Shown here in pieces: positions 22,709-57,033 of a stretch of DNA of 64,000 nt. The first letter of the stretch is position 1. Each line of letters starts with the position of its first letter. Source of the stretch: Dissulfuribacter thermophilus (lineage in GTDB: Bacteria; Desulfobacterota; Dissulfuribacteria; Dissulfuribacterales; Dissulfuribacteraceae); contig NZ_MAGO01000003.1 of assembly GCF_001687335.1 (NCBI RefSeq), forward strand, positions 124,001 through 188,000, written 5' to 3'. Under the pieces are notes generated by a model. The model saw only the letters and a program-made list of their open reading frames with translations. It was not told where the DNA came from and did no database searches. The position numbers and the translations under genes are program-made.

Positions 22709-22888
22709 AATAATCGGTTCAGGCCCTCCGTTAATTGCTTCCTTCACCCTCACAAGCTAAATGTGAAAATCACGCTTTAGTTATCTCACCAATAGAAGAA
22801 GAATTTAATTTATTGAAGGGAACTCCAACAATAGACATCTATAATTTATTCAAACTCAGAAATCACTCACGGTAAAGAGAGGATGCTT

Positions 22889-24481
22889 ATGCGAAATCAG
22901 GTTAAAGTTGCCTTGATCGGAGCTGGTTATTGGGGGAAAAACCTTGTTCGTAACTTTCATGCATTAGATGTTTTGAGCGCAGTCGTAGATCCTAATCCCG
23001 CGGTCCAGCAATGGTTAAACAGAAAATATCCAGAAATAAAAGTATATAATGCCATTAGTCAAGTTCTTGGTAATCCACAAATTGATGCAATGGCTATCGC
23101 TACTCCGGCTGAAACACATGGGACTCTTGTACGAGAGGGAATCTTAGCTGGGAAAGATGTATATGTTGAAAAACCCCTATGTCTTTCAGAAAAAGAAGGA
23201 GAAGAACTCATTAATCTTGCCGAAACTCATGAAAGAATTTTAATGGTAGGGCATCTTCTGTGGTATCACTCTGCCCTATTAAAATTACAAAATTTGATTG
23301 GAGAAGGTCAACTTGGGCGCATTCTTTATGTTTATTCTAACCGGCTTAACATGGGGAAACTGAGGAGAGAAGAAAACGTCTTATGGTCATTTGCTCCCCA
23401 TGACGTTTCAGTGATACTCGGCCTTCTAAACGAATTTCCCGACGAAATCCAGGCCCATTGTGGCAATTATCTGCATCAAAATATTGCAGATGTTACTGTC
23501 TCTCTACTCTCTTTTCCAAGTGGAATTAAGGCTCATATCTTTGTCTCATGGCTGCATCCTTTTAAGGAACAAAAACTTGTGATTGTGGGCGAACAGAAAA
23601 TGGCAGTCTTTGACGATACCCAACCATGGGAAAAGAAACTTATTTTATATCCCCATAAGGTAGAATGGAAAGGACAAATACCAGCGGCCATTAAGGCTGA
23701 AGGGGAGTATATAAAAATACCAGAATACGAACCGTTGAGGGCTGAGTGTGAGCACTTTATTGATTGTATAACTTCAAGAAGTGTACCCAGAACGGATGGA
23801 AAAGAGGGACTCCGGGTGTTAAAGGTGCTAAATGCCTGTCAAAAGGCAATAGAGACTGGGTATCCAGTCAAGCTCAGATTAAACAAAGACGGAAATAATT
23901 CAATTTTTATTCATCCCACTGCAATAGTAGATGAAGGTGCCATTATTGGCAATGGCACCAAAATCTGGCATTTTAGCCATGTTCTCGGAGAGAGCGAGAT
24001 CGGTCCCAACTGCAATATTGGTCAAAACGTAGTCATCGGTCCTCGTGTTAGGATCGGCAAAGGATGCAAAATCCAAAACAATGTTTCAGTCTATGAGGGA
24101 GTAACTCTTGAAGACTATGTATTTTGTGGTCCATCAGTTGTTTTTACAAACGTTTATAATCCAAGAGCAGAAATTCCCAGAAAAACTGAGTTTAGATCAA
24201 CTCTGGTAAAAAAGGGGGCCAGTCTTGGAGCAAATTCTACTATTTTGTGTGGAATCACAATAGGTGAATATGCCTTTATCGGTGCAGGATCGGTTGTCAC
24301 AAAGGATGTCCCACCTCATGCCCTAGTAGTCGGCAATCCAGCCCGACAAATTGGATGGGTGTGCAAATGTGGGAACAGGTTAGACAAGAAAGGGGAATGT
24401 AAATCTTGTGGAATAAAGTATTCTAAGGATTCCCTTGAGAACAAATTAAAAAATAATAAAAAAAGTTATTTTAAAACATAA
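22889..24481 (+). CDS. Gfo/Idh/MocA sugar dehydrogenase fused to WbpD-type N-acetyltransferase
   Basis: Residues ~1-335 are a Gfo/Idh/MocA oxidoreductase: Rossmann motif [13 protein letters not shown], then VEKPLCLS and GHLLWYH, as in WbpB/WlbA, which oxidises UDP-GlcNAcA at C3. Residues ~345-500 are a left-handed beta-helix acyltransferase with hexapeptide repeats ([27 protein letters not shown]) as in WbpD/WlbB, which N-acetylates the 3-amino sugar. A C-terminal CxC-x(8)-CxxC tail is typical of WbpD relatives. The intervening aminotransferase step (WbpE) is not encoded nearby. The ATG at 22889 has an AGAGAGG site; 22883 is an alternative. Confidence 0.85.
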
Positions 24482-25603
24482 GTAGTTTTTAATCATGCCG
24501 ACTGTCCAAGTTTTTAATTCTTTCAGCCAATAAAAACTACTTTAATAAGGAGAGCACAAAAATATAAGCCTCGATAGTTTTCTATCGATTAAAAGCTATT
24601 TAAGCTCTTTTCAAGTTTTTGACAACTTCTATTTTTTGTTATTCAATAAGGTAAAGAATATCATTTTCAATGATTCACCAATAAATATTAAAATGTTAGC
24701 AATTTAGTAAATTATACTTTAATAAGAATGGAATACATTAATGAAAGCTGTCTTGTTTACAGCTATCGATTGGGCAATCCAACATATCTAGCTGATTTTT
24801 TTTATTTTTAAAAGAAAATATCATACACGAGATAAAAAGGCAAACTTCTATGTTCAATCCAAATAGGATTGACTACTTAATTATAGATCATTTTGATCCA
24901 AACAAAAGTTTTATACTTCGATATTGCGATTTGACTGATTTGACTAAATTCATTCTTATCCATCCAAGATGTAAAATCAGGTGAATCTTTTAATCTTTTC
25001 AATCCAAAATCGTGTTCAAGAGTCGTTTGATGCAGCAAAACATATGAAGCTATTATGATGTTAGGTAATAGCCAAAACAATTTTTTCCTTCTCCTAATAG
25101 GAAGTCTTTTGGAGATTACATTAAGTCCACTAAGCTTAAAATAGATCGTCTGTTCTCATGCTCCATACGCAGTTGCAAAACTTTTTACATGCTAGATTAC
25201 CATAATTTACTGTGAAACCTATAATTTTTGCTGCAGAGAAACTATTCTTTAATCATGCATCTCTCATTAAAGATGAGATATTTGTTACAAGAAAAATCAT
25301 AAGAATTGTTGCCAGGATTACTCTAGGTGTTCAATAGCAGGATTTAGAAAAAAATTTAAACGGGAGGTCATAAAAAGGATTATTCACTCGTCATTTATTA
25401 TAATGTTATGTACTATTAACGCCTTGGCGACGCTTAGAAATTCAAAACTAACTCTTGGATATCAGGTAAATTTTCTAAAAAATAAAATATCATATCAACT
25501 CTCAAACTCCTTCAAACTTTCTCCTAGTTCCTCAATCGACTATAAACATTTTTTGTTCATATTTTTAAAAAATTTGATAATCCTTTTGCTGTATTAAGAA
25601 TAA
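24482..25603. other. 1.1-kb AT-rich stretch without a convincing gene
   Basis: The stretch is rich in A/T runs and many stops. Two short frames exist: a minus-strand frame ending at 24877 that can be read without a stop back to about 25166 (about 95 codons, no recognised domain, no obvious ribosome site), and a plus-strand frame 25403-25597. Neither resembles a known family. A reasonable reading is the remains of one or more decayed genes inside the glycan island, but sequence similarity cannot be judged here. Confidence 0.4.
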
Positions 25604-27136
25604 ATGTCACTACTTAAATCATCAAATATTTCTTTTTCACCGGATCGCAAACGTGCTTTTATTCTCCAAGTCCTTGGTGGATACGCAAATAACGCAATAG
25701 GGATTATTCAGGGACTATTGCTCGTCCCTCTCTATATCCACTACATAGGTATTCAGACATACGGATGGTGGCTGGCTTCAGGCGGTATATTTAACATGCT
25801 GAGACTCATGAATTTTGGTATCAATAGCATGTTAATACAGCGAATTGCCAGCGCTTACGGGAAACAAGATCTATTTCGAGCAGGAGCATACTTTTTCAAC
25901 GGGGCGCTCGTAAATGTAGGTATTTGTCTTCTGTATGGATTCACTGGATGGGTAATTTCCTTCTGGCTTCCAGAAATTCTCAATGTTACCGGTCGGGAAT
26001 CTGAAATATTACGTGGTTGTTTTCTGATAGCTGTGACAGCAATGGCAGTCGGCTTTTTTAATGAATGCATTCGAAGCCTTAATCAAGCGTTACTTCGTCC
26101 ACTGATTCCCGTTCTAAGTATCATCGTAGGACGTATCTTAGGGACTGGCGTTACAATATGGATGTTGCTTGATAATTTTCAATTGTGGGCGATCCCTTCT
26201 GGAATGTTAGTTACAGAGGGGATAATCTTTCTCATTAATATAGTCGATGTCATCACTTTTTTTTTACGACTTAACTTTCCAATAAAAATAAAAAAAGATA
26301 TTATAATTGAATACGTTCAAACTGGCCCGGCATTAATATTGGCTCGAGTTGGCCTTACTATTTCACAAGAGTCAGAACCATTATTAATTAATACCCTGAT
26401 TGGCCCTGAGATGAATACAGCATATATGGTTACACGAAGGGCTGCTGATTTTATTTTCCAGCTATTTAGTGTTATAAATGGATCCATTTATAGCCCCTTT
26501 TCACATATAGCCGGTGCAGAACAAACTCAAAAACTCTACACAATACTAAAACAAATCCTCATAATAAGTTTTTCAATAGGATTAATAGGATTTTCTATCT
26601 ACGCAGGGATAAATCATGAATTTGTCTCTTTATGGATAAATCAGTCCATAGTCCTCAACCAAGACATAATTCTAGCGATTGGCATAGGTTATTTTTTGCG
26701 CAGTATACGAGCTACCTTATGGCAACTCCTGAATGGACTAGGTGACTTTGTGTTCACTTCATTGATCATCTTTTTAGAGAGTTCTGTACGAATGGTTGTA
26801 GCCATCACAGCACTGACTTTTTTTGGTGTAATTGGGCTTCCCATGGCTTTATCTATTTCCTCTTTCAATTCATTAATTCTACTTAGCTTGAGGTTAAAAA
26901 AACGCTTTACATTACAATTAGATATAAATACCAATTTTAGGTTTTTACTTTCCGTTATAACTTTATTCGGGATCAGTTTGTTAGCTACCGAATATAAAAA
27001 TTTCCCGGTCTCATGGGGACACTTTCTAATTCATTCATTATTATTGACAATGACCCTTTTATTTTCGTTTATCTCCATTAATTGGGGAATACTCCGCTCA
27101 TTAGACATTAAAGGAAAGTTACCATCTTTATCATGA
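25604..27136 (+). CDS. Wzx-like oligosaccharide flippase
   Basis: A 510-residue membrane protein with about 12-14 hydrophobic segments and the general shape of the MATE/Wzx superfamily (N-terminal GGYANNAIGIIQGLLLVPLYI, then GWWLASGG). Such proteins move undecaprenyl-linked glycans across the inner membrane. The gene is in the middle of the plus-strand glycan run and its stop overlaps the next ATG, giving tight coupling. No Wzy polymerase is recognisable in the island, so the glycan may be a short oligosaccharide. Confidence 0.82.
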   Translation: MSLLKSSNISFSPDRKRAFILQVLGGYANNAIGIIQGLLLVPLYIHYIGIQTYGWWLASGGIFNMLRLMNFGINSMLIQRIASAYGKQDLFRAGAYFFNGALVNVGICLLYGFTGWVISFWLPEILNVTGRESEILRGCFLIAVTAMAVGFFNECIRSLNQALLRPLIPVLSIIVGRILGTGVTIWMLLDNFQLWAIPSGMLVTEGIIFLINIVDVITFFLRLNFPIKIKKDIIIEYVQTGPALILARVGLTISQESEPLLINTLIGPEMNTAYMVTRRAADFIFQLFSVINGSIYSPFSHIAGAEQTQKLYTILKQILIISFSIGLIGFSIYAGINHEFVSLWINQSIVLNQDIILAIGIGYFLRSIRATLWQLLNGLGDFVFTSLIIFLESSVRMVVAITALTFFGVIGLPMALSISSFNSLILLSLRLKKRFTLQLDINTNFRFLLSVITLFGISLLATEYKNFPVSWGHFLIHSLLLTMTLLFSFISINWGILRSLDIKGKLPSLS

Positions 27137-29739: not shown

Positions 29740-30360
29740 TCTAATTAAAATATTTTTTATTTGCTTTTCGTGGAAATTTTATGAAATTCTTTAACTGCAA
29801 ACTAAAAAAACTGTACGCTAAATACTTAAAACGTGATTACAAGAAAAAAGCATATTATGAGTATATTAAAGCCGTAGGAGAAAAACTTCGTACTAACTAT
29901 CCATTGCAAAGGAATTCCCTTGTGGTCGATGTAGGTGGATATCCTGGAGATTTTACAGAGGCAATAATAAAAAAATTTGATTGCTGGGTTGAAGTATTTG
30001 AACCTATAGAACAATATGCAGAAAATATCAGAAGACGTTTTCATGATAATAAAAAAGTAAAAGTAATTCAGGCTGGACTTGGAGGGACGGAAAAAAAGAC
30101 ATCTATAAGTACTATGGGATCGGCATCCAGTTTATTTCTTTTAAAACCACATAATTCCGTAGAACATATTAAGATACTTTCCATTATAGATTATCTTAAA
30201 TCAATAAATCGACCAGAAATAGATTTAATGAAAATTAATATTGAAGGCGGTGAATATGAATTATTCAATGCACTTTTAAATTATCCAGATTTGATTTGCA
30301 AAATTAGATTTTTACAAATTCAATTTCATGATTTTATTTCTGACGCACAAAAAATGAAAA

Positions 30361-30368
30361 GTAATATT
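30361..30368. repeat. Target-site duplication of the IS21 element, left copy
   Basis: GTAATATT immediately precedes the element's TGT end and is repeated at 32561-32568 right after its ACA end. Confidence 0.85.
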
Positions 30369-30471
30369 TGTCAATGGCCCTTTAAAAGTGTACCAGAAAT
30401 GGCCTCGAAAAGTGTACCACCTTTGGTAGTCGAGTTGGTACCTATCCTTCAAATGATAGGAGGAAGGTACC

Positions 30472-32474
<2,003 letters not shown>

Positions 32475-32560
32475 ACGTGAATAATTTCTATGTCAATAAT
32501 AATAAAGGTGGTACACTTTTCAGTTTCCAAAAATGGTACACTTTTAGGCGTCCATTAACA

Positions 32561-32568
32561 GTAATATT
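32561..32568. repeat. Target-site duplication of the IS21 element, right copy
   Basis: GTAATATT directly follows the element; it matches 30361-30368 exactly. Confidence 0.85.
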
Positions 32569-32673
32569 CAAAGACGGCTTTCAAAGACTCACAAATTAAT
32601 GTAGAATTTTCCATTTATTTGGGAAAGTTGGGAGAAAATAGACTGACCAAATCACTCTTTTGAGAATGATCGC

Positions 32674-33696
32674 ATGGTTGATTTGATTCATATAGGTGAT
32701 TATAAAACGGGTACTAGTTGGTGGCAGACTAAAATCTTACCGATTCATCAAGAGATATATTATCTAGATGATCCCTCTAAGCATCCAGATGTGGTTCACC
32801 TCATGCATCTCCTTATAGATTCAAGAGATCTAGATTTTGATGAAGTTTATTTGCGAGAAAAATTTAGCCAAATCTTAAGTAAAATTAACCTCACCAACCA
32901 AAAAGTAGTAATTTGTCGAGAAGCTTTGTCTGGATCATTTCCCACTGGAGATAATGCTGCAAGAATAGCTTATAGACTGAAGGCTGTCTTTGGTAGTACC
33001 AAAATATTGATTGTAATTCGAGAGCAGTTTTCTATGTTAAAATCCATATATAGTCAATACATTAAAATGGGGGGAACTCTATCATTCAATGATTTTGTTT
33101 ACGATCCAATTGTCTCTCCTGGCCTAATTGAAAGATTAAAATACCACAAAATTATACAAAAATATATTGAACTATTCGACAACCATAATGTAATGATTGG
33201 ATTATTCGAAGATTTTAGATTAGACAATATAGGCTTTGCAAATAAAGTATTTGATTTTATTGGATGTAATAAAATTAATCAAGAATGTGCAGAGTTAGTT
33301 AAAGTCAATCGTTCATTAACGAAAATTGGCCTTGAAATTCAACGTATTATTAATCATTTTTTACGAAATCATTATAATCCAAGAAAATCTTTTTTTCCAC
33401 TGTCAAAAATAATTACTTATCTCCTGCCTTCAAAACTTAAACAGCGAATTTTAAAATCGGTCCAAAATAGATTAATCTATTCAAAAGAAGTTTCTAATCA
33501 AATATTATTACAATATGCAATTGATTTTGCGATAACAGTATATATTTCAAAACTGTGTGAATATTTTCAATTTGGTCCAAAACTAACTGTGCCTACTGAT
33601 ATAAAAAGAAGGCTAAGTGATGAATTCGCGGGATCAAATAGAATTTTATTAACAAAATATGGCCTTCCAGTTGACAAATTCGGATGGGTACTATGA
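32674..33696 (+). CDS. Sulfotransferase-like protein
   Basis: A 340-residue protein with the PAPS-binding 5'-phosphosulfate loop signature of sulfotransferases near the N-terminus (HIGDYKTGTSWWQTKIL) and the 3'-phosphate region (KILIVIREQFSMLKSIYSQYI). The C-terminal half is less familiar. A glycan or lipid is the likely acceptor given the neighbours, but this is inference. It begins 27 bases after the remains of the FkbM gene and overlaps the next gene by 13 bases. Confidence 0.7.
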   Translation: MVDLIHIGDYKTGTSWWQTKILPIHQEIYYLDDPSKHPDVVHLMHLLIDSRDLDFDEVYLREKFSQILSKINLTNQKVVICREALSGSFPTGDNAARIAYRLKAVFGSTKILIVIREQFSMLKSIYSQYIKMGGTLSFNDFVYDPIVSPGLIERLKYHKIIQKYIELFDNHNVMIGLFEDFRLDNIGFANKVFDFIGCNKINQECAELVKVNRSLTKIGLEIQRIINHFLRNHYNPRKSFFPLSKIITYLLPSKLKQRILKSVQNRLIYSKEVSNQILLQYAIDFAITVYISKLCEYFQFGPKLTVPTDIKRRLSDEFAGSNRILLTKYGLPVDKFGWVL

Positions 33697-35811: not shown

Positions 35812-36723
35812 TTAAAGCTTAATCAGCTTCTTATAATAATTACCAATTTTAATAAGAATTTTTTCAGGCATCAAACTGAGAATGAGACAAAATAATGTAT
35901 AGAAGCTAGTTTTATATTTTAATGAATTATATAAATCTCGTCGAGCATCTTTTATTTGTACCATATATAAGTAATATTGGCCCCAGTACCGATAAGCCTC
36001 TGCCATAATTATTTTTTCTTTTCCAGCATATAGATCAGGAGCTCGCTTAAATGCCTTTTCAATTATATTAAAATAATCTGATCGCATTTGTTTAAGTGAT
36101 TGCCTAGTTGAATAACTCCTATCACGTTTGTAGACTATCACCAAAGGTTCGGGGATTTCAACTAATTTTGACACCTCTTTTAATCTTATCCAAAGATCTT
36201 GATCTTCTCTAGTTCTCAAAGATTCGTCAAAACCACCAACCTTATCCAAAAAAGATTTTCTACAAACTGTTGATGACGTACACTGTAAGGGATTTGGCCA
36301 AAATATAGTATGCCATTTATTACGACTAGGAGAATAATAATTCCGTATTACTTCGTTTCCTCTATTGTCTCTCAATATAGCCCAAGTAAATATTAGACCT
36401 ATTTTTTCATCCTTTTTAAATTGATCAATTACCTTTTTTAAATAGCCGGGTCGCCATTCGTCATCTGCATCCAAAAATGCAATAAACTCCCCCTTGGCCA
36501 TAGTAATCCCTAAATTACGTGCAGCAGCAGGGCCCGCATTTTTCTGAAAAAAATATCGAACAGAAGAGGAAGGGCTTGACCTCACAATCTTCTCTGTGTC
36601 GTCAGTTGAACCATCGTCAACTATTATTATTTCTAGAGGCACTTCCACTTGTTTCAAAGCAGAATAAATAGCCCTATTTATTATAGAGCCGTTATTATAT
36701 GTTGGAATAATAACGCTCACCAT
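35812..36723 (-). CDS. Family 2 glycosyltransferase
   Basis: A 303-residue GT2 enzyme: MVSVIIPTYNNGSIINRAIYSAL, IIIVDDGSTDDTE, and the DxD in FLDADDEWRPGY. It converges on the plus-strand GT2 gene with 29 bases between the stops and no obvious terminator. It belongs to the minus-strand block with the GT4, the DPM-like GT2 and STT3. Confidence 0.85.
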   Translation of the reverse strand: MVSVIIPTYNNGSIINRAIYSALKQVEVPLEIIIVDDGSTDDTEKIVRSSPSSSVRYFFQKNAGPAAARNLGITMAKGEFIAFLDADDEWRPGYLKKVIDQFKKDEKIGLIFTWAILRDNRGNEVIRNYYSPSRNKWHTIFWPNPLQCTSSTVCRKSFLDKVGGFDESLRTREDQDLWIRLKEVSKLVEIPEPLVIVYKRDRSYSTRQSLKQMRSDYFNIIEKAFKRAPDLYAGKEKIIMAEAYRYWGQYYLYMVQIKDARRDLYNSLKYKTSFYTLFCLILSLMPEKILIKIGNYYKKLIKL

Positions 36724-36859: not shown

Positions 36860-38041
36860 TTAATCGCAATTTATTATGGTCTTAGCATATATATTTTTGT
36901 ACTGCCGAGCTGTATTTTCCCATGTCAGTCCCCATTTAATCATCATATTTCTTCCTCGTGCCCCAAAAATCATAAGTTTTTTGGGATCATTCAATATAGC
37001 CTTTAAAGTATCTACAAGTCCTTTCACGTCTCCCGGTTTAAATAGCCATCCATTCACTCCATCTAAAACCAATTCATTGGTACCTTCAATGTCTGTAGCA
37101 ATAACTGGTAGTCCTGCTGCCATTGCCTCTAGCACCACACTTGGTCTGCCTTCTGAGTAGCTGGGTAAAACCAAGCAATGTGATTGAGCCATACATCTTG
37201 GAATACGATCCGGTTCCACTGATCCTAGAAATGTAACTCTATCATTCACTTTATTATCCAAACAAACCATCTCCAATTTTTCGCGCTCTGGCCCATCACC
37301 TACTATTGTGATTTCCCAGTTATCAATATTTTTTAATCTACAAAAGGCTTTGATAAGTAAATCCACCCCTTTAACAGGAATTAACGATCCAACATATAAA
37401 AATTTTATCGATTGTCCTAAGGTTTCAAAAGTGGGATTAACGGAAAAAAAATCCTCACTCACGCCATTTGGGATGAAACATATTTTCTCTGAATATTGTG
37501 GGAAATGGACCTTTAATCTATTGGAAATTGTTTGACTGACCCCAACGATAACAGATGAATCCAAGAGCGTTTTTTTCTGAATGTATCTATACAATTCGTT
37601 TCCTTTGGCGAGATTAAAATCTGAACCATGTATTGTGGTAATAATCGGCCGTCGTTTAAATAAGGAAGTCAGGGAAGCTAAAAATCCTGAAATAGACCAA
37701 TGAGCATGGATTATGTCATGTGAATTAGATAACTTGAGAATGTTAAACCACATAGAAACTAAAAAGGTAGGCAGAAGAAAATACATCACGCGATTTTTTC
37801 TTAACGCCTGAGGGACACCTCCTGGTCTTTGTGCCAATAGTTGCAATTTTTTTGGAGCATAACGGCATCGGACTACTTTTATATCTTCAGGCCAAGCTGA
37901 TTTTAAAATACCATCTGGGGTAAGAACCGTACAGGAAACATCTCTTGTTTTTTCTAGTTCCCGTACCAATCGCAGAATAAAAGGTCCTGCAGTATCTTTT
38001 GAATGGGAGGGAAACGATGTGGTTATATGGAGAACTTTCAC
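36860..38041 (-). CDS. Family 4 glycosyltransferase
   Basis: A 393-residue GT-B transferase. The N-terminal half opens with KVLHITTSFPSHSKDTAGPFI; the C-terminal half has LYVGSLIPVKGVDLLIKAF, VGDGPEREKLE and the E-x7-E motif in SEGRPSVVLEAMAAGLPVIATD, typical of GT4. It lies 4 bases after the DPM-like gene and probably adds a sugar to the lipid-linked glycan. Confidence 0.87.
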   Translation of the reverse strand: MKVLHITTSFPSHSKDTAGPFILRLVRELEKTRDVSCTVLTPDGILKSAWPEDIKVVRCRYAPKKLQLLAQRPGGVPQALRKNRVMYFLLPTFLVSMWFNILKLSNSHDIIHAHWSISGFLASLTSLFKRRPIITTIHGSDFNLAKGNELYRYIQKKTLLDSSVIVGVSQTISNRLKVHFPQYSEKICFIPNGVSEDFFSVNPTFETLGQSIKFLYVGSLIPVKGVDLLIKAFCRLKNIDNWEITIVGDGPEREKLEMVCLDNKVNDRVTFLGSVEPDRIPRCMAQSHCLVLPSYSEGRPSVVLEAMAAGLPVIATDIEGTNELVLDGVNGWLFKPGDVKGLVDTLKAILNDPKKLMIFGARGRNMMIKWGLTWENTARQYKNIYAKTIINCD

Positions 38042-38045
38042 TTTC

Positions 38046-38993
38046 TCATTTCAACTCTTTATTGTAATCCATGTCGAACCACATGGCAAAAAAGAGTGAC
38101 TGAAGGCCTGAGATGAAAAGAAAGGCTGCAAACAAGGCACTCGTTTCATTCACTGGCCCCACCATTAACCTATGACCTATTAGATACAAGCCAAACAAAA
38201 AACCAGAAGGTGTGAGAGTCAAGCCCATAAGATAGAAGAAAACCAATGGATGAAAATCCTGCACAACATATTTAAAAAAAAGTCTTCTGAAAAAGCCTCT
38301 CAACAACAAAACAGGGATGGTAAATAATACTTTTCTTAGTTTAATACCTGATTTTTCACCAATATTGTAAACAGGGCGAACAGGTACATCACGCACCCTC
38401 ATATTAAGTTCATTTAATCGAATTAATATGTCATTTGGCATCCCATAACGCTTATAAATTTTATCTAAGTCCAGAAGCTCTAGGGCTTCAAGGGATATTG
38501 CAGTATATCCTGTTTGAGAGTCAGCAATGTGCCAATAACCTGATGCGATTTTAGTCAAAAGAGAAAGAAAAGAATTGCCCAAGTATCTGTATTTTGGCAT
38601 TACTTTCCAGGCTTCACCATGAAACAGCCTATTCCCCTTAGTATAATCTGCCTCGCCTCTAGCAACTGGCCTCACAATATTGGGAAGATCCGCCGGATCC
38701 ATCTGTGCATCTCCAGCCATTACTGCGGTAACATCTATCTTTTTTCCTCTGGCCCATTTATATCCTGTTACAATGGCTCCACCAACTCCTTGATTTTCTT
38801 GATGTTCAATTAATGTGATCTTTGGATTCGTGCTTTGGTATCTTTTTACTATTTCCTTAGTATTATCTCTGCTACAATCATCTACCACAATAATGTGGTC
38901 AACAAATTCGGGCATTGTCTCAATTACTTTACCTATAAGTGCAGATTCATTATATGCAGGAATAACAACCGCTATGCTCTTACCTTCAAACAC
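38046..38993 (-). CDS. Dolichyl-phosphate mannose synthase-like family 2 glycosyltransferase
   Basis: A 315-residue GT2 of the DPM1/DPG synthase type: IAVVIPAYNESALIGKVIETMP, VVDDCSRDNT and the DxD-like MAGDAQMDP. Two C-terminal hydrophobic segments (~245-310) anchor it in the membrane. Such enzymes charge a polyprenyl phosphate with a hexose. Its position just downstream of STT3 suggests it supplies a lipid-linked sugar to that glycosylation route. Confidence 0.85.
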   Translation of the reverse strand: MFEGKSIAVVIPAYNESALIGKVIETMPEFVDHIIVVDDCSRDNTKEIVKRYQSTNPKITLIEHQENQGVGGAIVTGYKWARGKKIDVTAVMAGDAQMDPADLPNIVRPVARGEADYTKGNRLFHGEAWKVMPKYRYLGNSFLSLLTKIASGYWHIADSQTGYTAISLEALELLDLDKIYKRYGMPNDILIRLNELNMRVRDVPVRPVYNIGEKSGIKLRKVLFTIPVLLLRGFFRRLFFKYVVQDFHPLVFFYLMGLTLTPSGFLFGLYLIGHRLMVGPVNETSALFAAFLFISGLQSLFFAMWFDMDYNKELK

Positions 38994-39080: not shown

Positions 39081-41276
39081 TTAAAGTGTATCTCCTTGAA
39101 CTTCCCATATTTGATGGGAAGGTGTCATAAGGCGAACTGGTTTAAAATATTTGGGATCATATGTATGCCTTAAAAACAATGTATTAAATACAGAATTGGC
39201 AATATTAAAGTCCATAAGCGCTCCAAAACCAGCTGGCATGAATACCTCGAAATCAGCTCCACTCTTGTGTGAATAAACCATTTTTTTTGGCTTTTTGCCT
39301 CCAACTATTATTAATTGTTTTAATAGTATGTTACGTTCATTGTATTTTAAAATACCTTGATCAATATCAATCATAATAGCAGGGCCTACGATCTTATTAT
39401 CTCTAAGTTTCAAATTGTAAAATGCTCTATATACAGGATGAATTCCCTCTCGATTCATTACATCCCATGATCCTAACCAAAACCACCAGTAACTCGTTAC
39501 AGTGAGTCTCCAATCTAAATAAAGGTAAACAGGCCGTCTCTTTTTAGGGAAGAAGAAAGTAAGCCACTTTTCAGGTGAAAGGCCTGCATTGTTCAATAGT
39601 TCCCTGGCCTCATCTGGACCAGAAGCCAATATCTCTTTCATTAATCTTTGTCCCCTGGCTATATCTCCTCCAAGTGCGGAATAGAACTTATGGACTCCAT
39701 TAAATCCGTTTGCCGCATAAAAACACATAAAATTTGCAGCAAGTCTTTGACTATTAGTGGCCAATGGTATGCCGTTATAAGATGATCTCTCTCCACCATG
39801 AATAGTTCCGTCTCCAACGGTTCCACGTCTTGCCCAGTACACAATGGGATAGCCATGATCCCACCATGCCCAGAGAATAGCATCTTTGGGGGTATGTTCA
39901 CCTGCGTATACAAAACCATCAATAAGGTGAGGCGGCTCCTTTGGCCAAAAGGTTTTATTCATATCTTTTAAAAATAATGGCCAGGCTAACAATATCACTA
40001 TAGCAGGTGCCAATAAGGCCATAATTACATTTTTTTCTTTTAACCGCCATAATTCGCAAATAAGAAATCCCAGGCCGAGTGCTGTTACTGGCGCAAGAAA
40101 AATAAGAAATCTTTTTGCAGTAAAGAAAGACAGTGCCGCCAGAATAATAGGTACTGATAAAAAAAGACTATCTTTAGGGCGCTTGTAAAATAACCACAAA
40201 AGACCTGCTACAGATAGGAAAAAAGCTGGTTTATTGCCTGTTGTTTTTAGGACAACTTCGTTAAAACTCGGAATGGCCTGTTCAGAGATAGTAGCTCCAA
40301 TCTCTGGCCAAATACCTGCTACCTTCTTAGTCGTAATATAATGATAAACCCCTAAAACTTGTTTTATGATCCTTATAGGGAGGTCAAAGCCCTGCCAAAA
40401 TAAAATTCCCAAAAGGCCTACCCCTATTACACTTAAAAAAATCATAAGTTCTCGTTTTGTCTTAGATCTATAGAAAAAGATCAAGGCTACAGAAAAAGGG
40501 ACAAATGAAATCACTGTAGTGACTGCAGGAGTGGAATCCCACCAAAGGAGAAAAAGGGCATAAACTGTTAAACCAAGGATAAAATATATGTATCTTTTAT
40601 TTGAATGAGTCTTTGCAAATAGAAGGAAACAATATGTTACCCCAGTGGCCCAAGTGACGTTCATACAGTCAGTATCAAACCAACCCACACTACTCCTATA
40701 AAGATAGTAATGAGAAAGTAGACCAAATAAGGTGGCAGTTAAGGCCATAATCGGGCCACCGTAAAACCGTCCAAGCCCGTATAATGGAATTGCTAATAAG
40801 AGCCCTAGAAACGCAGGAAGTACAGCCCCTATCCAATTGAGTGACCAACCAGTTAGGATAGAAGTGTAGGCACCAATAGTTGAAAGTAATGGAGGGGGCA
40901 TGCGGCGTTTAACACCTGTGGGTACGTCTCTATTATAGTCAACCTTTGTATAAGTACCGTCTACTATATCCTTTGAGAGACTTAGATAGTAATATCCATC
41001 GAAGGTAGTAAGTAGGGGTTCACCTTTATACATGGCAATATTTGGATTTGCTTCCCAATCCCTCAAGTCCTCAAGCCTAACCACAAGGCCTACAATAATT
41101 ATAAGGATTATGGCTAAAGCTTCCTTCCATGTGGCATAGGAAAAAATTCTTTGAAAAAAACCGTTAAAGGACGAGGTGTCTACAGCCCCTGATTGGGCTT
41201 TTGATTCTGAGATCTCAATTTTTGATTCATTGGCATGCTTACCACTTTTTAGTCTTTTATTCCTCTTTTTTGCCAT
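39081..41276 (-). CDS. STT3/PglB/AglB family oligosaccharyltransferase
   Basis: A ~731-residue polytopic protein with about 13 membrane segments and a soluble C-terminal domain. It shows the STT3 catalytic features: an acidic loop early on (TTFDGYYY), DTD in GWFDTDCMNV (~201-203), TISE in external loop 5 (~329-332) and the acceptor-binding WWDHG (~471-475; WWDYG in most homologues). These enzymes transfer an oligosaccharide from a polyprenyl carrier to Asn in N-x-S/T sites. The ATG at 41276, with an AGAGG site, is preferred to 41303. A hydrophilic basic N-terminus precedes the first membrane segment. Confidence 0.9.
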   Translation of the reverse strand: MAKKRNKRLKSGKHANESKIEISESKAQSGAVDTSSFNGFFQRIFSYATWKEALAIILIIIVGLVVRLEDLRDWEANPNIAMYKGEPLLTTFDGYYYLSLSKDIVDGTYTKVDYNRDVPTGVKRRMPPPLLSTIGAYTSILTGWSLNWIGAVLPAFLGLLLAIPLYGLGRFYGGPIMALTATLFGLLSHYYLYRSSVGWFDTDCMNVTWATGVTYCFLLFAKTHSNKRYIYFILGLTVYALFLLWWDSTPAVTTVISFVPFSVALIFFYRSKTKRELMIFLSVIGVGLLGILFWQGFDLPIRIIKQVLGVYHYITTKKVAGIWPEIGATISEQAIPSFNEVVLKTTGNKPAFFLSVAGLLWLFYKRPKDSLFLSVPIILAALSFFTAKRFLIFLAPVTALGLGFLICELWRLKEKNVIMALLAPAIVILLAWPLFLKDMNKTFWPKEPPHLIDGFVYAGEHTPKDAILWAWWDHGYPIVYWARRGTVGDGTIHGGERSSYNGIPLATNSQRLAANFMCFYAANGFNGVHKFYSALGGDIARGQRLMKEILASGPDEARELLNNAGLSPEKWLTFFFPKKRRPVYLYLDWRLTVTSYWWFWLGSWDVMNREGIHPVYRAFYNLKLRDNKIVGPAIMIDIDQGILKYNERNILLKQLIIVGGKKPKKMVYSHKSGADFEVFMPAGFGALMDFNIANSVFNTLFLRHTYDPKYFKPVRLMTPSHQIWEVQGDTL

Positions 41277-41344
41277 GGATTTACCTCTAGATTCTTCCTC
41301 CATCCCAATAATGTTTACAGATGACCTTCACAAAAAACAAAAAA

Positions 41345-54021: not shown

Positions 54022-57000
54022 TTAAACTGGCTCTACTCTAACACAGGTGCTACTAAAATCGGGAATGCCACCAACGAGGTCAATTAGGGGGGTATTACCG
54101 AAATCATAGTCCAAGTCTGAAAGTTCGTTGGGATTGATACCCTTACCAAGACTTTGATCAGAGATTACAATATCCCCTTGGGTAACTGTTTCTCCACCGA
54201 GCATCACATGCTTGGCATTTCTTATCTTTAATGAAGATGCCCCAAGCCCTTTATGCCCATAAGAAATAGAGATAGCCACTGTGCCAGGCCGTATGGTCCA
54301 AGTGGTCCTAAGCTCACCCACAACTCCATCTCGGTTGGACCTGCTTTTGACCCACACAAGATCCCCATCCCTGAGCTTAAGCCTTGCGGCATCCCCTTGG
54401 TTCATGAGCACAAAATTTTGTGGATGAAGTTCCAGAGCCACCTTATGCCATATGGTCCTTGATTGCGTGTGAAGGGCTTGCTTGTAACTAATGAGTGTAA
54501 ATGGAAAATCAGGGTCTCCTTGATTTATGGGAGGAACGTATCTTAATGAACCATAAAATCGCCTTCCAGTAATTGAACAAACGGTATCTGAAAGACCTTC
54601 ATTGTAAATGGTAAAACGCTTTGGTCCGTATTTAAATGCCTCTCCCCAAAAACAGTTTTCATATGGAGAAAATAGACCACCTCTTGAAAGGAGGACACAC
54701 ACCCTCCTCCACTCCTCTTTGGTAAGAATAGCCTTATATTTGGAGACAGGGTAATTTCTCTCAACAAACTCAATAGCCTCAGTATCATCACATCTTAAAT
54801 TAGCGTTTTCCGCAATATTTGAGAAACCTCGAAGGTAGAAGTCTTCTGCCTGTTTTAAGGGATACACTCTAGAATCCTTCCCTGGTATGGCATTTTGGCC
54901 AAAGCCGGGGAGATTCATGGCCTCGGCAAGGTCAATCAAGAAGGTTTCGAGACATATCGGCCTTCCGTCTCTGGTCTTTGGAGTGATGGGTTCTATTATA
55001 GGGGTCCTTACGGCTGTAAACTTAAAAGCAGGGGCGTGGGGGCTTAGCCAGCCGTAGTGCCCCTCAGCATAGGTAATATCTGGAATAATATAGTCAGCGT
55101 AAATATTTGATTCGTTTATTCCGATGTCTATTGAGACCAAAAGAGGCACCTTATCTGGGTCCGAAAGGGTGGCTTTGAACCGATTGCCACCTGGTATTGA
55201 GTATACTGGATTAAAAAAATAGAGGAATAGTGCGGTAATTGGATAGGGGTACTTAGTATCTATACCAGAGAGGGCCTCTACACTCAGCCCCCCTTTTGTA
55301 AAAGGGAACCAGGGTCTAGTTGCTGGATAGGTTTTTTCACCTGAGCTTTGTTTCTTCCTATATTCAGTTGAATCTCGATAGTCTGCCTTTTCCCTCGATA
55401 TCTTTATTCCACGAGGTTTCCTTTTTCCCTGAAAATTCAAAAGATCGTACGAACCTTTCTTCCAGGAAGAGAGTCCTCCTCCAGAAGTGATATATCCGCC
55501 CTTTCTTCCAAGGCTGCCTGAAAGGGCGTTTAGGGCAGCTACTGCATATGCTGCATATGTGCCATTCACATAGTTTCCGGCACCATGATACTGGCATACT
55601 GAGGCATATGGGGCATGGTCCGAAAACTCGCGGGCAACCTCCTCTATTGTCTCTTTATCTACACCTGAAAATCTGGCGTAGTCTTCAATTGAGTGCTCAA
55701 AGACACCTTCTTGCATTATATTAAATGCACTTCTTACCCGTATCCGTTTCCCTTCACCGTCTTCAATATATTTGTCTACATTTAGCTCAGCACATTTGAC
55801 CTCGATGTAGGATACGAGTTCGTCTCCACCCTTTTTCACTACAACAAAATGGTCTTTCTCTTCTTTTGAGACATCACTGGAGACATCCCCTAATCTCAAA
55901 AATTTTCCATGCCTTGGATCATTTTCATCCCAGACCACGAGATGGGTCGCATTTACATAGGCCCCATTTCCAAGTTCCAATGCCGCCTGTCTGTTTGGTG
56001 CCTCAAGATATTGCCTATTAAATCTCTTATTTTCTATAAGCCACCTTATGATTCCCAGGGCAAAGGCCCCATCCTGACCAGGCCTTATGGGAACCCATCT
56101 ATGAGCATGTGCCGATGCCTTTTGGGCACGCGGGTCCACGATTACGAATTTTAAATCTCCATTTCGCGCTCTTTTTGCGAGGGTCGCTCCATAGGTGTTT
56201 AACCCTGGCTGAAGGGCCTCATACACGTTTGCCCCAAATATAATGATGTATTTTGCACTCCAGGGGTCTGCCTTCAACTCCACGGCCTCTCCTTCAGTAA
56301 AGGCATAATTTCCCATTCTGAATCCAAGGCCGCAAATGTCAGTATGTCCAATCCTGTTAACAGAGCCAAAGGCGTATTTAACAAATCGATCTATGAAGGC
56401 CTTTCTCCCATGTTGAAGCCTTCCTGTCATAAAGCAAAAGCCGTTTCTCTTAGGCCCGAGTTCTGGTGCATCAGGGTCAATGGACTCGTCAGAGAGAAGA
56501 TCTTTTAGACCTGGCACGTGGCGATCTTCTCCTAAATGGGAAAAGAGTCGTCCTCCATTGACAATCTCGGTTATGAGCCTTTCCCACTCAATGGGCTCAA
56601 ATTTCCCCTCGCCCCTTTTTCCTACCCTCTTTAGGGGCATCAGAATCCTATAAGGACTGAATACATAGTTTGAGATCTCCTTGGCCTTCCCACAGACTGA
56701 GCCAGAAATCTTCAAGGATTTTTCAAGAGGGGTTTCTAAAGAAATTGGTTGCCCTAGAGTATTATAGGGATGATATGGATTACCCGTAACAGTTTCTATC
56801 TTGCCGTCCCTTGAAAAGGCCTTTATTCCACACCTAGCATTGCAACCCAGACACAGAGTGTGAATGACCCTTGTCTCAGGACTTGAGAGATATTTGAAGG
56901 TCCCCTTTTCATAGGATGGAAATATCGTCATATCGCTTTTATTCATACCCTTAGAGGAGACCAACGCACACCCTTGCAAAAGAAAAAATGGTGCCCCCTT

Positions 57001-57033
57001 AAAAAGAGTTCTACGAGAAATCCCTTTTTTCAT
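54022..57033 (-). CDS. ttrA: Tetrathionate reductase-like molybdopterin oxidoreductase (Tat substrate)
   Basis: A 1003-residue molybdo-bis-MGD enzyme. SRRTLFKGA (6-14) is a Tat signal; LLQGC at 18-22 could be a lipobox. A [4Fe-4S] site is C61-x2-C64-x3-C68 with Cys114. The Mo ligand is probably the Cys in HTDICGLGFRMGN. Length and layout match TtrA/SrrA/PhsA relatives of the DMSO-reductase family, with sulfur oxyanions or polysulfide as likely substrates. It follows the ferredoxin gene with a 23-base overlap to its end. I cannot decide between tetrathionate, thiosulfate and arsenate-type subfamilies. Confidence 0.75.
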   Translation of the reverse strand: MKKGISRRTLFKGAPFFLLQGCALVSSKGMNKSDMTIFPSYEKGTFKYLSSPETRVIHTLCLGCNARCGIKAFSRDGKIETVTGNPYHPYNTLGQPISLETPLEKSLKISGSVCGKAKEISNYVFSPYRILMPLKRVGKRGEGKFEPIEWERLITEIVNGGRLFSHLGEDRHVPGLKDLLSDESIDPDAPELGPKRNGFCFMTGRLQHGRKAFIDRFVKYAFGSVNRIGHTDICGLGFRMGNYAFTEGEAVELKADPWSAKYIIIFGANVYEALQPGLNTYGATLAKRARNGDLKFVIVDPRAQKASAHAHRWVPIRPGQDGAFALGIIRWLIENKRFNRQYLEAPNRQAALELGNGAYVNATHLVVWDENDPRHGKFLRLGDVSSDVSKEEKDHFVVVKKGGDELVSYIEVKCAELNVDKYIEDGEGKRIRVRSAFNIMQEGVFEHSIEDYARFSGVDKETIEEVAREFSDHAPYASVCQYHGAGNYVNGTYAAYAVAALNALSGSLGRKGGYITSGGGLSSWKKGSYDLLNFQGKRKPRGIKISREKADYRDSTEYRKKQSSGEKTYPATRPWFPFTKGGLSVEALSGIDTKYPYPITALFLYFFNPVYSIPGGNRFKATLSDPDKVPLLVSIDIGINESNIYADYIIPDITYAEGHYGWLSPHAPAFKFTAVRTPIIEPITPKTRDGRPICLETFLIDLAEAMNLPGFGQNAIPGKDSRVYPLKQAEDFYLRGFSNIAENANLRCDDTEAIEFVERNYPVSKYKAILTKEEWRRVCVLLSRGGLFSPYENCFWGEAFKYGPKRFTIYNEGLSDTVCSITGRRFYGSLRYVPPINQGDPDFPFTLISYKQALHTQSRTIWHKVALELHPQNFVLMNQGDAARLKLRDGDLVWVKSRSNRDGVVGELRTTWTIRPGTVAISISYGHKGLGASSLKIRNAKHVMLGGETVTQGDIVISDQSLGKGINPNELSDLDYDFGNTPLIDLVGGIPDFSSTCVRVEPV

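Follow-up and report, generated by a model that had tools for sequence, protein, structure and literature searches.

A PglB-type oligosaccharyltransferase of Dissulfuribacter thermophilus adjoins an AglJ-like synthase, pointing to a possible polyprenyl-monophosphate donor

Introduction

The bacterial PglB enzymes whose structures have been solved work with diphosphate-linked donors. The AglK, AglC and AglB proteins of the archaeon Methanococcus voltae form a monophosphate route, with a DPM-like GT2 first, then a further glycosyltransferase, and then the oligosaccharyltransferase. According to a 2015 paper, donors in bacteria are linked through diphosphate (PMC4476749), and a 2021 paper describes diphosphate donors as common in all three domains, with the Euryarchaeota exceptional in using monophosphate (PMC8342417). 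In an account of H. volcanii, where dolichol phosphate is the carrier, the initiating GT2 AglJ is genetically linked with the oligosaccharyltransferase AglB, and AglD is presented as a Dol-P-sugar synthase that serves a late step and not as the source of the oligosaccharyltransferase donor (PMC3871713). One source puts bacterial PglB homologues inside trees of archaeal AglB, proposes that they were transferred from archaea, and groups AglJ and AglK with Dpm (PMC4973528). The PglB proteins of Desulfovibrio desulfuricans, D. gigas and D. vulgaris are reported to be active oligosaccharyltransferases with relaxed sequons (PMC4894442).

Here, we analyze an STT3 gene of Dissulfuribacter thermophilus in its setting, a 64,000-nucleotide stretch of the genome that we refer to as the window. 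Its product is a predicted N-oligosaccharyltransferase from the same phylum as the Desulfovibrio enzymes. It resembles Campylobacter PglB (C. lari, structures 5ogl and 3rce, and C. jejuni) in fold, in its metal- and sequon-binding residues and in being a bacterial single-subunit enzyme, but it adjoins an AglJ-type synthase rather than a pgl cluster. The arrangement recalls both archaeal systems, H. volcanii in the linkage of an AglJ-like GT2 to the oligosaccharyltransferase and in the monophosphate donor that we propose, and M. voltae in its set of enzymes, and differs from them in being bacterial and built on a PglB-type STT3. The STT3 belongs to an ordinary enzyme family; what is new is its partner, which points to a donor chemistry that we did not find reported in bacteria. 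A full-text literature search, mostly of papers free of subscription, returned no proposal of monophosphate donors for bacterial N-glycosylation.

Results

The gene under study and the codons of one of its motifs lie as follows:

39081..41303, minus strand: predicted STT3/PglB-type oligosaccharyltransferase, 740 aa (PF02516 and PF21436 above cut-off; AlphaFold2 model compared with PglB)
39852..39866, minus strand: WWDHG codons (residues 480-484), expected binder of the sequon +2 Ser/Thr (computed from residue numbers)

The frame is single and intact, with a second in-frame Met (residue 10) at 41276 as an alternative start. The protein scores 66.6 bits against PF02516 (cut-off 24.5) and 39 bits against the STT3/PglB/AglB core PF21436 (cut-off 23), and no other protein of the 2.52-Mb genome matches PF02516. 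It lies below the curated scores of both equivalog-level models examined, reaching 87.2 of 1300 bits for PglB (NCBIfam NF050801) and 34.1 of 450 bits for the archaeosortase-system archaeal oligosaccharyltransferase (TIGR04154). Against the PDB, its sequence matches C. lari PglB at E 3e-12, and a profile built from 27 relatives does so at E 1.5e-33. An AlphaFold2 model made with these 27 relatives (pLDDT 84.3) has C. lari PglB (5ogl) as its top structural match (Z 30.5, 628 aligned, 3.7 Å, 18% identity), followed by yeast STT3 (Z 24.9) and Archaeoglobus AglB (Z 24.1); the C-mannosyltransferase DPY19 (Z 16.9) and ArnT (Z 15.9) fall far under PglB.

An earlier note made from the sequence had called this gene an oligosaccharyltransferase with DTD, TISE and WWDHG features. 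All three can be located, at D210-T211-D212, T338-E341 and W480-G484, and the call is borne out by the family profiles, the predicted fold and the conserved catalytic residues. Among 34 aligned STT3 proteins of the class, D102, D210, D212, E341, W481 and D482 are kept in every one and W480 in 33. In what we take to be C. lari numbering, the equivalents of D56, R147, D154, D156, E319, W464 and D465 are present in 34/34, those of R375 and W463 in 33/34, and that of H485 in 32/34. Because a PglB-like fold is combined with kept active-site residues, we predict with great confidence that the protein is an N-oligosaccharyltransferase, a single-subunit enzyme of the STT3/PglB fold that would attach sugar chains to Asn of exported proteins.

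Its differences from Campylobacter PglB include two residues. At the position that is presumably Arg331 of the C. lari enzyme, the window protein has Lys353, as do 30 of the 34 aligned class proteins. Prediction of the sequon from this position was tried and abandoned: the PglB of D. gigas retains this Arg and yet is described as relaxed (PMC4894442). The other is the His of WWDHG, where Campylobacter PglB has WWDYG. The earlier note took this His as a special trait that might alter acceptor preference, a reading that did not hold, since His occurs class-wide (His 30, Tyr 2, both in divergent paralogs, Leu 1 and Gln 1 among the 34) and the motif appears as WWDXG in a review (PMC2952790). The His is thus a trait of the group and gives no hint specific to the window gene.

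Three glycosyltransferase genes follow STT3 on the same strand, in the order that had been read from the sequence:

38046..38993, minus strand: GT2-A, putative AglJ/DPM-type polyprenyl-phosphate sugar synthase, 315 aa, with a hydrophobic C-terminal region (PF00535, TIGR04182, fold)
36860..38041, minus strand: GT4 glycosyltransferase (PF00534)
35812..36723, minus strand: GT2 glycosyltransferase (PF00535)

The gaps between them are 87 bp (STT3 to GT2-A), 4 bp (GT2-A to GT4) and 136 bp (GT4 to GT2). Relatives of the GT4, 42-47% identical, follow a synthase gene in G035, G039, G007, G040, G009 and G311, and we consider it a probable second-sugar transferase; the second GT2 is a possible enzyme of further elongation. 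Upstream of STT3 lie genes for HisD, DegP, FtsH and a PpiC-type isomerase, and a blastp screen of 29 relatives' loci found none of these neighbors beside STT3.

The proposal that a polyprenyl-phosphate sugar synthase stands beside STT3 finds support in the profile and predicted fold of GT2-A. Among all NCBIfam models, its top match is AglJ (TIGR04182) at 93.4 bits, below the curated equivalog score of 325. In its AlphaFold2 model (pLDDT 68.6), the catalytic part is better and the membrane part poor. The nearest folds are ArnC (Z 23.6, 224 aligned, 3.2 Å), P. furiosus Dol-P-Man synthase (Z 22.4, 198 aligned, 2.1 Å) and GtrB (Z 20.7, 196 aligned, 2.5 Å), all of them polyprenyl-monophosphate enzymes, with soluble phosphoglycerate glycosyltransferases close behind (Z 19.9). 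Hydropathy gives one hydrophobic segment in GT2-A and one to three in its subfamily A relatives; the model helices at 219-311 are of low confidence. By sequence and model, GT2-A is a predicted AglJ/DPM-type polyprenyl-monophosphate sugar synthase. In relatives, STT3 often adjoins a second, distinct subfamily instead, GT2-B, which is 26-30% identical to A and has C-terminal hydrophobic segments. AglJ is again the top NCBIfam match, at 120-139 bits for the four GT2-B proteins that were scanned. Genome G008 has a third synthase type, of 240 aa, nearest PpgS (protein from locus L011). Separately, contig 9 of G000 carries a second DPM-like GT2 region (32520-33119, inside a 553-aa open frame) that is 30% identical to GT2-A.

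Converging on these genes is a plus-strand run at about 21.2-35.8 kb that encodes a NusG-like protein, a Gfo/hexapeptide enzyme, a MatE/Wzx-like protein, methyltransferases, a sulfotransferase, a GT10 fucosyltransferase and other glycosyltransferases:

22883..24481, plus strand: Gfo/Idh/MocA oxidoreductase fused to a hexapeptide acyltransferase (PF01408 and PF00132)
25604..27136, plus strand: MatE/Wzx-like flippase candidate (PF01554, 28.4 bits; cut-off 24.9)
30369-32560: IS21-type element (istA/istB) with inverted ends, splitting the run

The earlier note had counted this flippase-containing run toward an N-glycosylation pathway. The MatE/Wzx-like protein is indeed there, but membership in the pathway did not stand: a blastp comparison with 29 relatives' loci found the run beside STT3 in none, save for single GT- or MATE-like matches, only the Gfo/hexapeptide gene recurs, and the run is split by IS21. 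We therefore rejected the run as part of the pathway. Relatives of the Gfo/hexapeptide gene, 59-68% identical, directly follow GT2-A in G003 and G035, and a link of this gene to the STT3 pathway is possible; the gene recalls the diacetylated uronic acid genes that a review describes in M. voltae (PMC2952790). Promoter and terminator scans gave fewer hits than shuffled expectation. Within the run, the 1.1 kb at 24482-25603, between the Gfo/hexapeptide and MatE/Wzx genes, has no plus-strand frame of at least 70 aa and possibly holds gene remains, and an FkbM methyltransferase frame (29781-30533) upstream of IS21 runs into the element and is probably cut short. Elsewhere in the window, 54022-57033 encodes a molybdopterin oxidoreductase nearest the tetrathionate reductase TtrA (580 bits, under the cut-off of 1750).

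The pairing of STT3 with a synthase was followed through 42 genomes sampled from the class, which all belong to one order; 36 carry STT3. The sample has 34 main-clade STT3 genes, and as two end at contig edges, 32 are assessable. A DPM/AglJ-type GT2 adjoins 21 of the 32 (7 A, 13 B and 1 other): 19 lie immediately downstream on the same strand, that of G027 is on the opposite strand, and that of G009 follows one intervening ORF. In several pairs the genes overlap, by 1-49 bp. The other 11 STT3 genes comprise ten of one clade and that of G002, and in 10 of the 11 genomes B is found at another site. By genome, A or B is found in 30/36 with STT3 and 0/6 without (Fisher p 1.8e-4, kinship ignored); the six STT3-bearing genomes with neither are G004, G008, G011, G014, G018 and G032. 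Only G028 and G031 in the class sample have both A and B; of the two STT3 genes in G031, one is paired with A and the other with B.

An STT3 tree was built from 39 of 50 rows, after 11 distant ones had been set aside, and to explain the neighbor label A on it takes four or more changes along well-supported branches. Sister pairs differ in their synthase: the window STT3 (A) pairs with that of G028 (B) at 100/100, and that of G035 (A) with that of G039 (B) at 98/98. Since the A label changes so often, two distinct synthases replace each other in one slot. The genetic coupling is solid, and functional coupling of STT3 with an AglJ/DPM-type synthase is highly likely.

Outside the class, the two subfamilies differ in how they relate to STT3. 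Among 375 sampled genomes, strong B matches occur in 41, STT3 in 52, and both in 15 (p 8e-5, uncorrected); the 41 are genomes with B matches of E 1e-85 or better plus G228, whose match is in two pieces, and weaker matches were left out. In all eight STT3-bearing genomes sampled from f41, a different family in the phylum, B is the gene immediately upstream of STT3 (six loci read, two by coordinates). In family f47, presumed from an inferred naming to be Desulfovibrio-like, the one locus read (G111) has a WWDWG STT3, unlike the window protein, and B at E 1e-40 occurs in no STT3-bearing f47 genome of the sample. For motif comparison, 20 outside-class STT3 loci were chosen from the 52 genomes with PF02516; G364 and G298 gave no match to the STT3 profile. 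Among 18 STT3 proteins, 8/8 with WWD[HN]G and 2/10 of the others come from B-positive genomes (Fisher p 0.001), an association on which we do not build because the rows are kin.

GT2-A occurs in 31 outside-class genomes (E 1e-100 or better), and 30 of them lack STT3, the exception being G311; we therefore rejected A as a dedicated STT3 partner across the phylum. We read 29 outside-class A loci at 51% or more identity to GT2-A (40 were fetched; G226 and G312 were excluded, having no GT2 frame after filtering). Nine have a TMEM260-like (PF11028) or PMT-type (PF02366/PF13231) gene immediately upstream, seven confirmed by Pfam and those of G051 and G110 by a custom profile only; the STT3 of G311 makes a tenth. 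The remaining 19 lack a GT-C gene immediately upstream in the same orientation, counting as misses four loci (G361, G046, G170 and G346) with no upstream gene on the stretch. Pfam names the TMEM260-like and PMT-type families after protein mannosyltransferases, and because A follows such genes outside the class, a role for GT2-A in feeding its GT-C neighbor fits.

PglC-type enzymes (PF02397) show a different distribution, being present in 6/6 genomes without STT3 and 26/36 with it; we rejected PglC-type initiation as an STT3-linked step, as this phylogenetic profile shows no association. The D. thermophilus genome itself has two PF02397 enzymes and two PF00953 proteins. One PF02397 enzyme, of PglC size (200 aa), lies on contig 10 (L094, 7093-12611) with PglF-like (PF02719), PglE-like (DegT), FemAB-type, deacetylase and glycosyltransferase genes; this locus looks like an exopolysaccharide locus and could also make a diphosphate donor. 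The larger PF02397 enzyme is near a Wzx-type protein. Genome G013, a 98%-complete draft, carries STT3 and B but lacks PF02397, and its only PF00953 protein is of MraY size.

Discussion

The recurrent coupling of STT3 with AglJ/DPM-type synthases leads us to infer, by analogy with the euryarchaeal systems, a polyprenyl-monophosphate donor for the window STT3, to which we give an even chance. Also in its favor are the AglJ matches of A and B, the polyprenyl-monophosphate enzymes nearest to A in fold, the GT-C neighbors of A outside the class and the gene content of G013. Against it count the PF02397 enzymes of D. thermophilus and of most STT3-bearing genomes, the 11 STT3 genes with no adjoining synthase, the six STT3-bearing genomes with neither A nor B, the occurrence of A outside the class mostly apart from STT3 and in 19 of 29 loci apart from any upstream GT-C gene, the scores of STT3 and GT2-A below the NCBIfam equivalog cut-offs, and the late-step role of AglD in H. 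volcanii. In the proposed scheme, GT2-A would load polyprenyl monophosphate with a single sugar, taken from a nucleotide sugar, at the cytoplasmic face, the GT4 and possibly the second GT2 would extend it, a flippase would turn the lipid-linked glycan over, and STT3 would pass the glycan from this monophosphate carrier to the Asn of N-x-S/T sites in exported proteins; acceptor, sugar, order of steps, flippase and donor are all part of this proposal. The AglJ/AglB logic of Euryarchaeota would then operate in a bacterium, replacing the undecaprenyl diphosphate donor that PglC initiates. More broadly, and with slightly less assurance, we suggest that a large Thermodesulfobacteriota group N-glycosylates from polyprenyl monophosphate, with an AglJ-like synthase of two interchangeable subfamilies replacing the PglC step and a PglB-type STT3 accepting the product.

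The main alternative is a classical Campylobacter-type pathway, which would start from a polyprenyl-diphosphate sugar formed by a PglC- or WecA-like enzyme, extended by glycosyltransferases and transferred by STT3, with A and B as ordinary elongators that lie beside STT3 by chance. Solved bacterial PglB is established to use diphosphate donors, and such a donor is a live option in D. thermophilus because its genome has PF02397 beside PglF- and PglE-like genes, along with a second, larger PF02397 enzyme close to a Wzx-type protein and two PF00953 proteins. We nonetheless consider this pathway unlikely: PF02397 is untied to STT3 whereas A and B track it, the contig 10 enzyme keeps exopolysaccharide-like company (FemAB, deacetylase and glycosyltransferase genes), and G013 has no candidate initiating enzyme except the MraY-size protein. 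No STT3 sequence feature or residue that we tested separates monophosphate- from diphosphate-donor enzymes.

Less probable still is that the polyprenyl-phosphate sugar made by A or B is added to the N-glycan in the periplasm after STT3, itself using a diphosphate donor, has acted. Such a two-donor scheme is described in H. volcanii, where AglD works with AglR and AglS (PMC3871713); it would involve the same synthase fold and chemistry and would explain the coupling without a new donor type. It would also require a second GT-C transferase, and none is present among the window genes scanned, while among named synthases the top score for both A and B goes to AglJ, a first-sugar enzyme. That STT3 uses a polyprenyl-phosphate sugar on a lipid or another type of residue, as other GT-C enzymes do, is very improbable, for even though GT2-A elsewhere adjoins TMEM260-like and PMT-type enzymes and DPY19 and ArnT have the same fold at lower Z, PglB is the nearest fold by a wide margin, and both the WWD sequon pocket and the catalytic Glu, E341, are conserved.

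If a monophosphate donor is indeed used, the system would give the euryarchaeal exception a bacterial counterpart and break the diphosphate rule for bacteria, and the donor phosphate would not be fixed by oligosaccharyltransferase lineage. Glycoengineering would gain an oligosaccharyltransferase fed by a one-enzyme start. Because close STT3 sisters carry different synthases, the question of what in an oligosaccharyltransferase determines the use of mono- or diphosphate becomes a direct experiment.

STT3 genes also occur in other settings within the class. A second, divergent paralog is present in G003 (contig 142, L133), G020 (contig 51, L132), G011 (L131) and G022 (contig 135); these proteins are 25-30% identical, the two that were aligned have WWDYG or MWDYG, and the paralog of G003 has a DPM-like GT2 frame two ORFs away. 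In the main-clade group that has no adjoining synthase (L016, L017 and other loci), STT3 occupies a stable housekeeping position, with glnE on one side and on the other an HD-domain gene and then thrS-infC-rplT-pheS-pheT.
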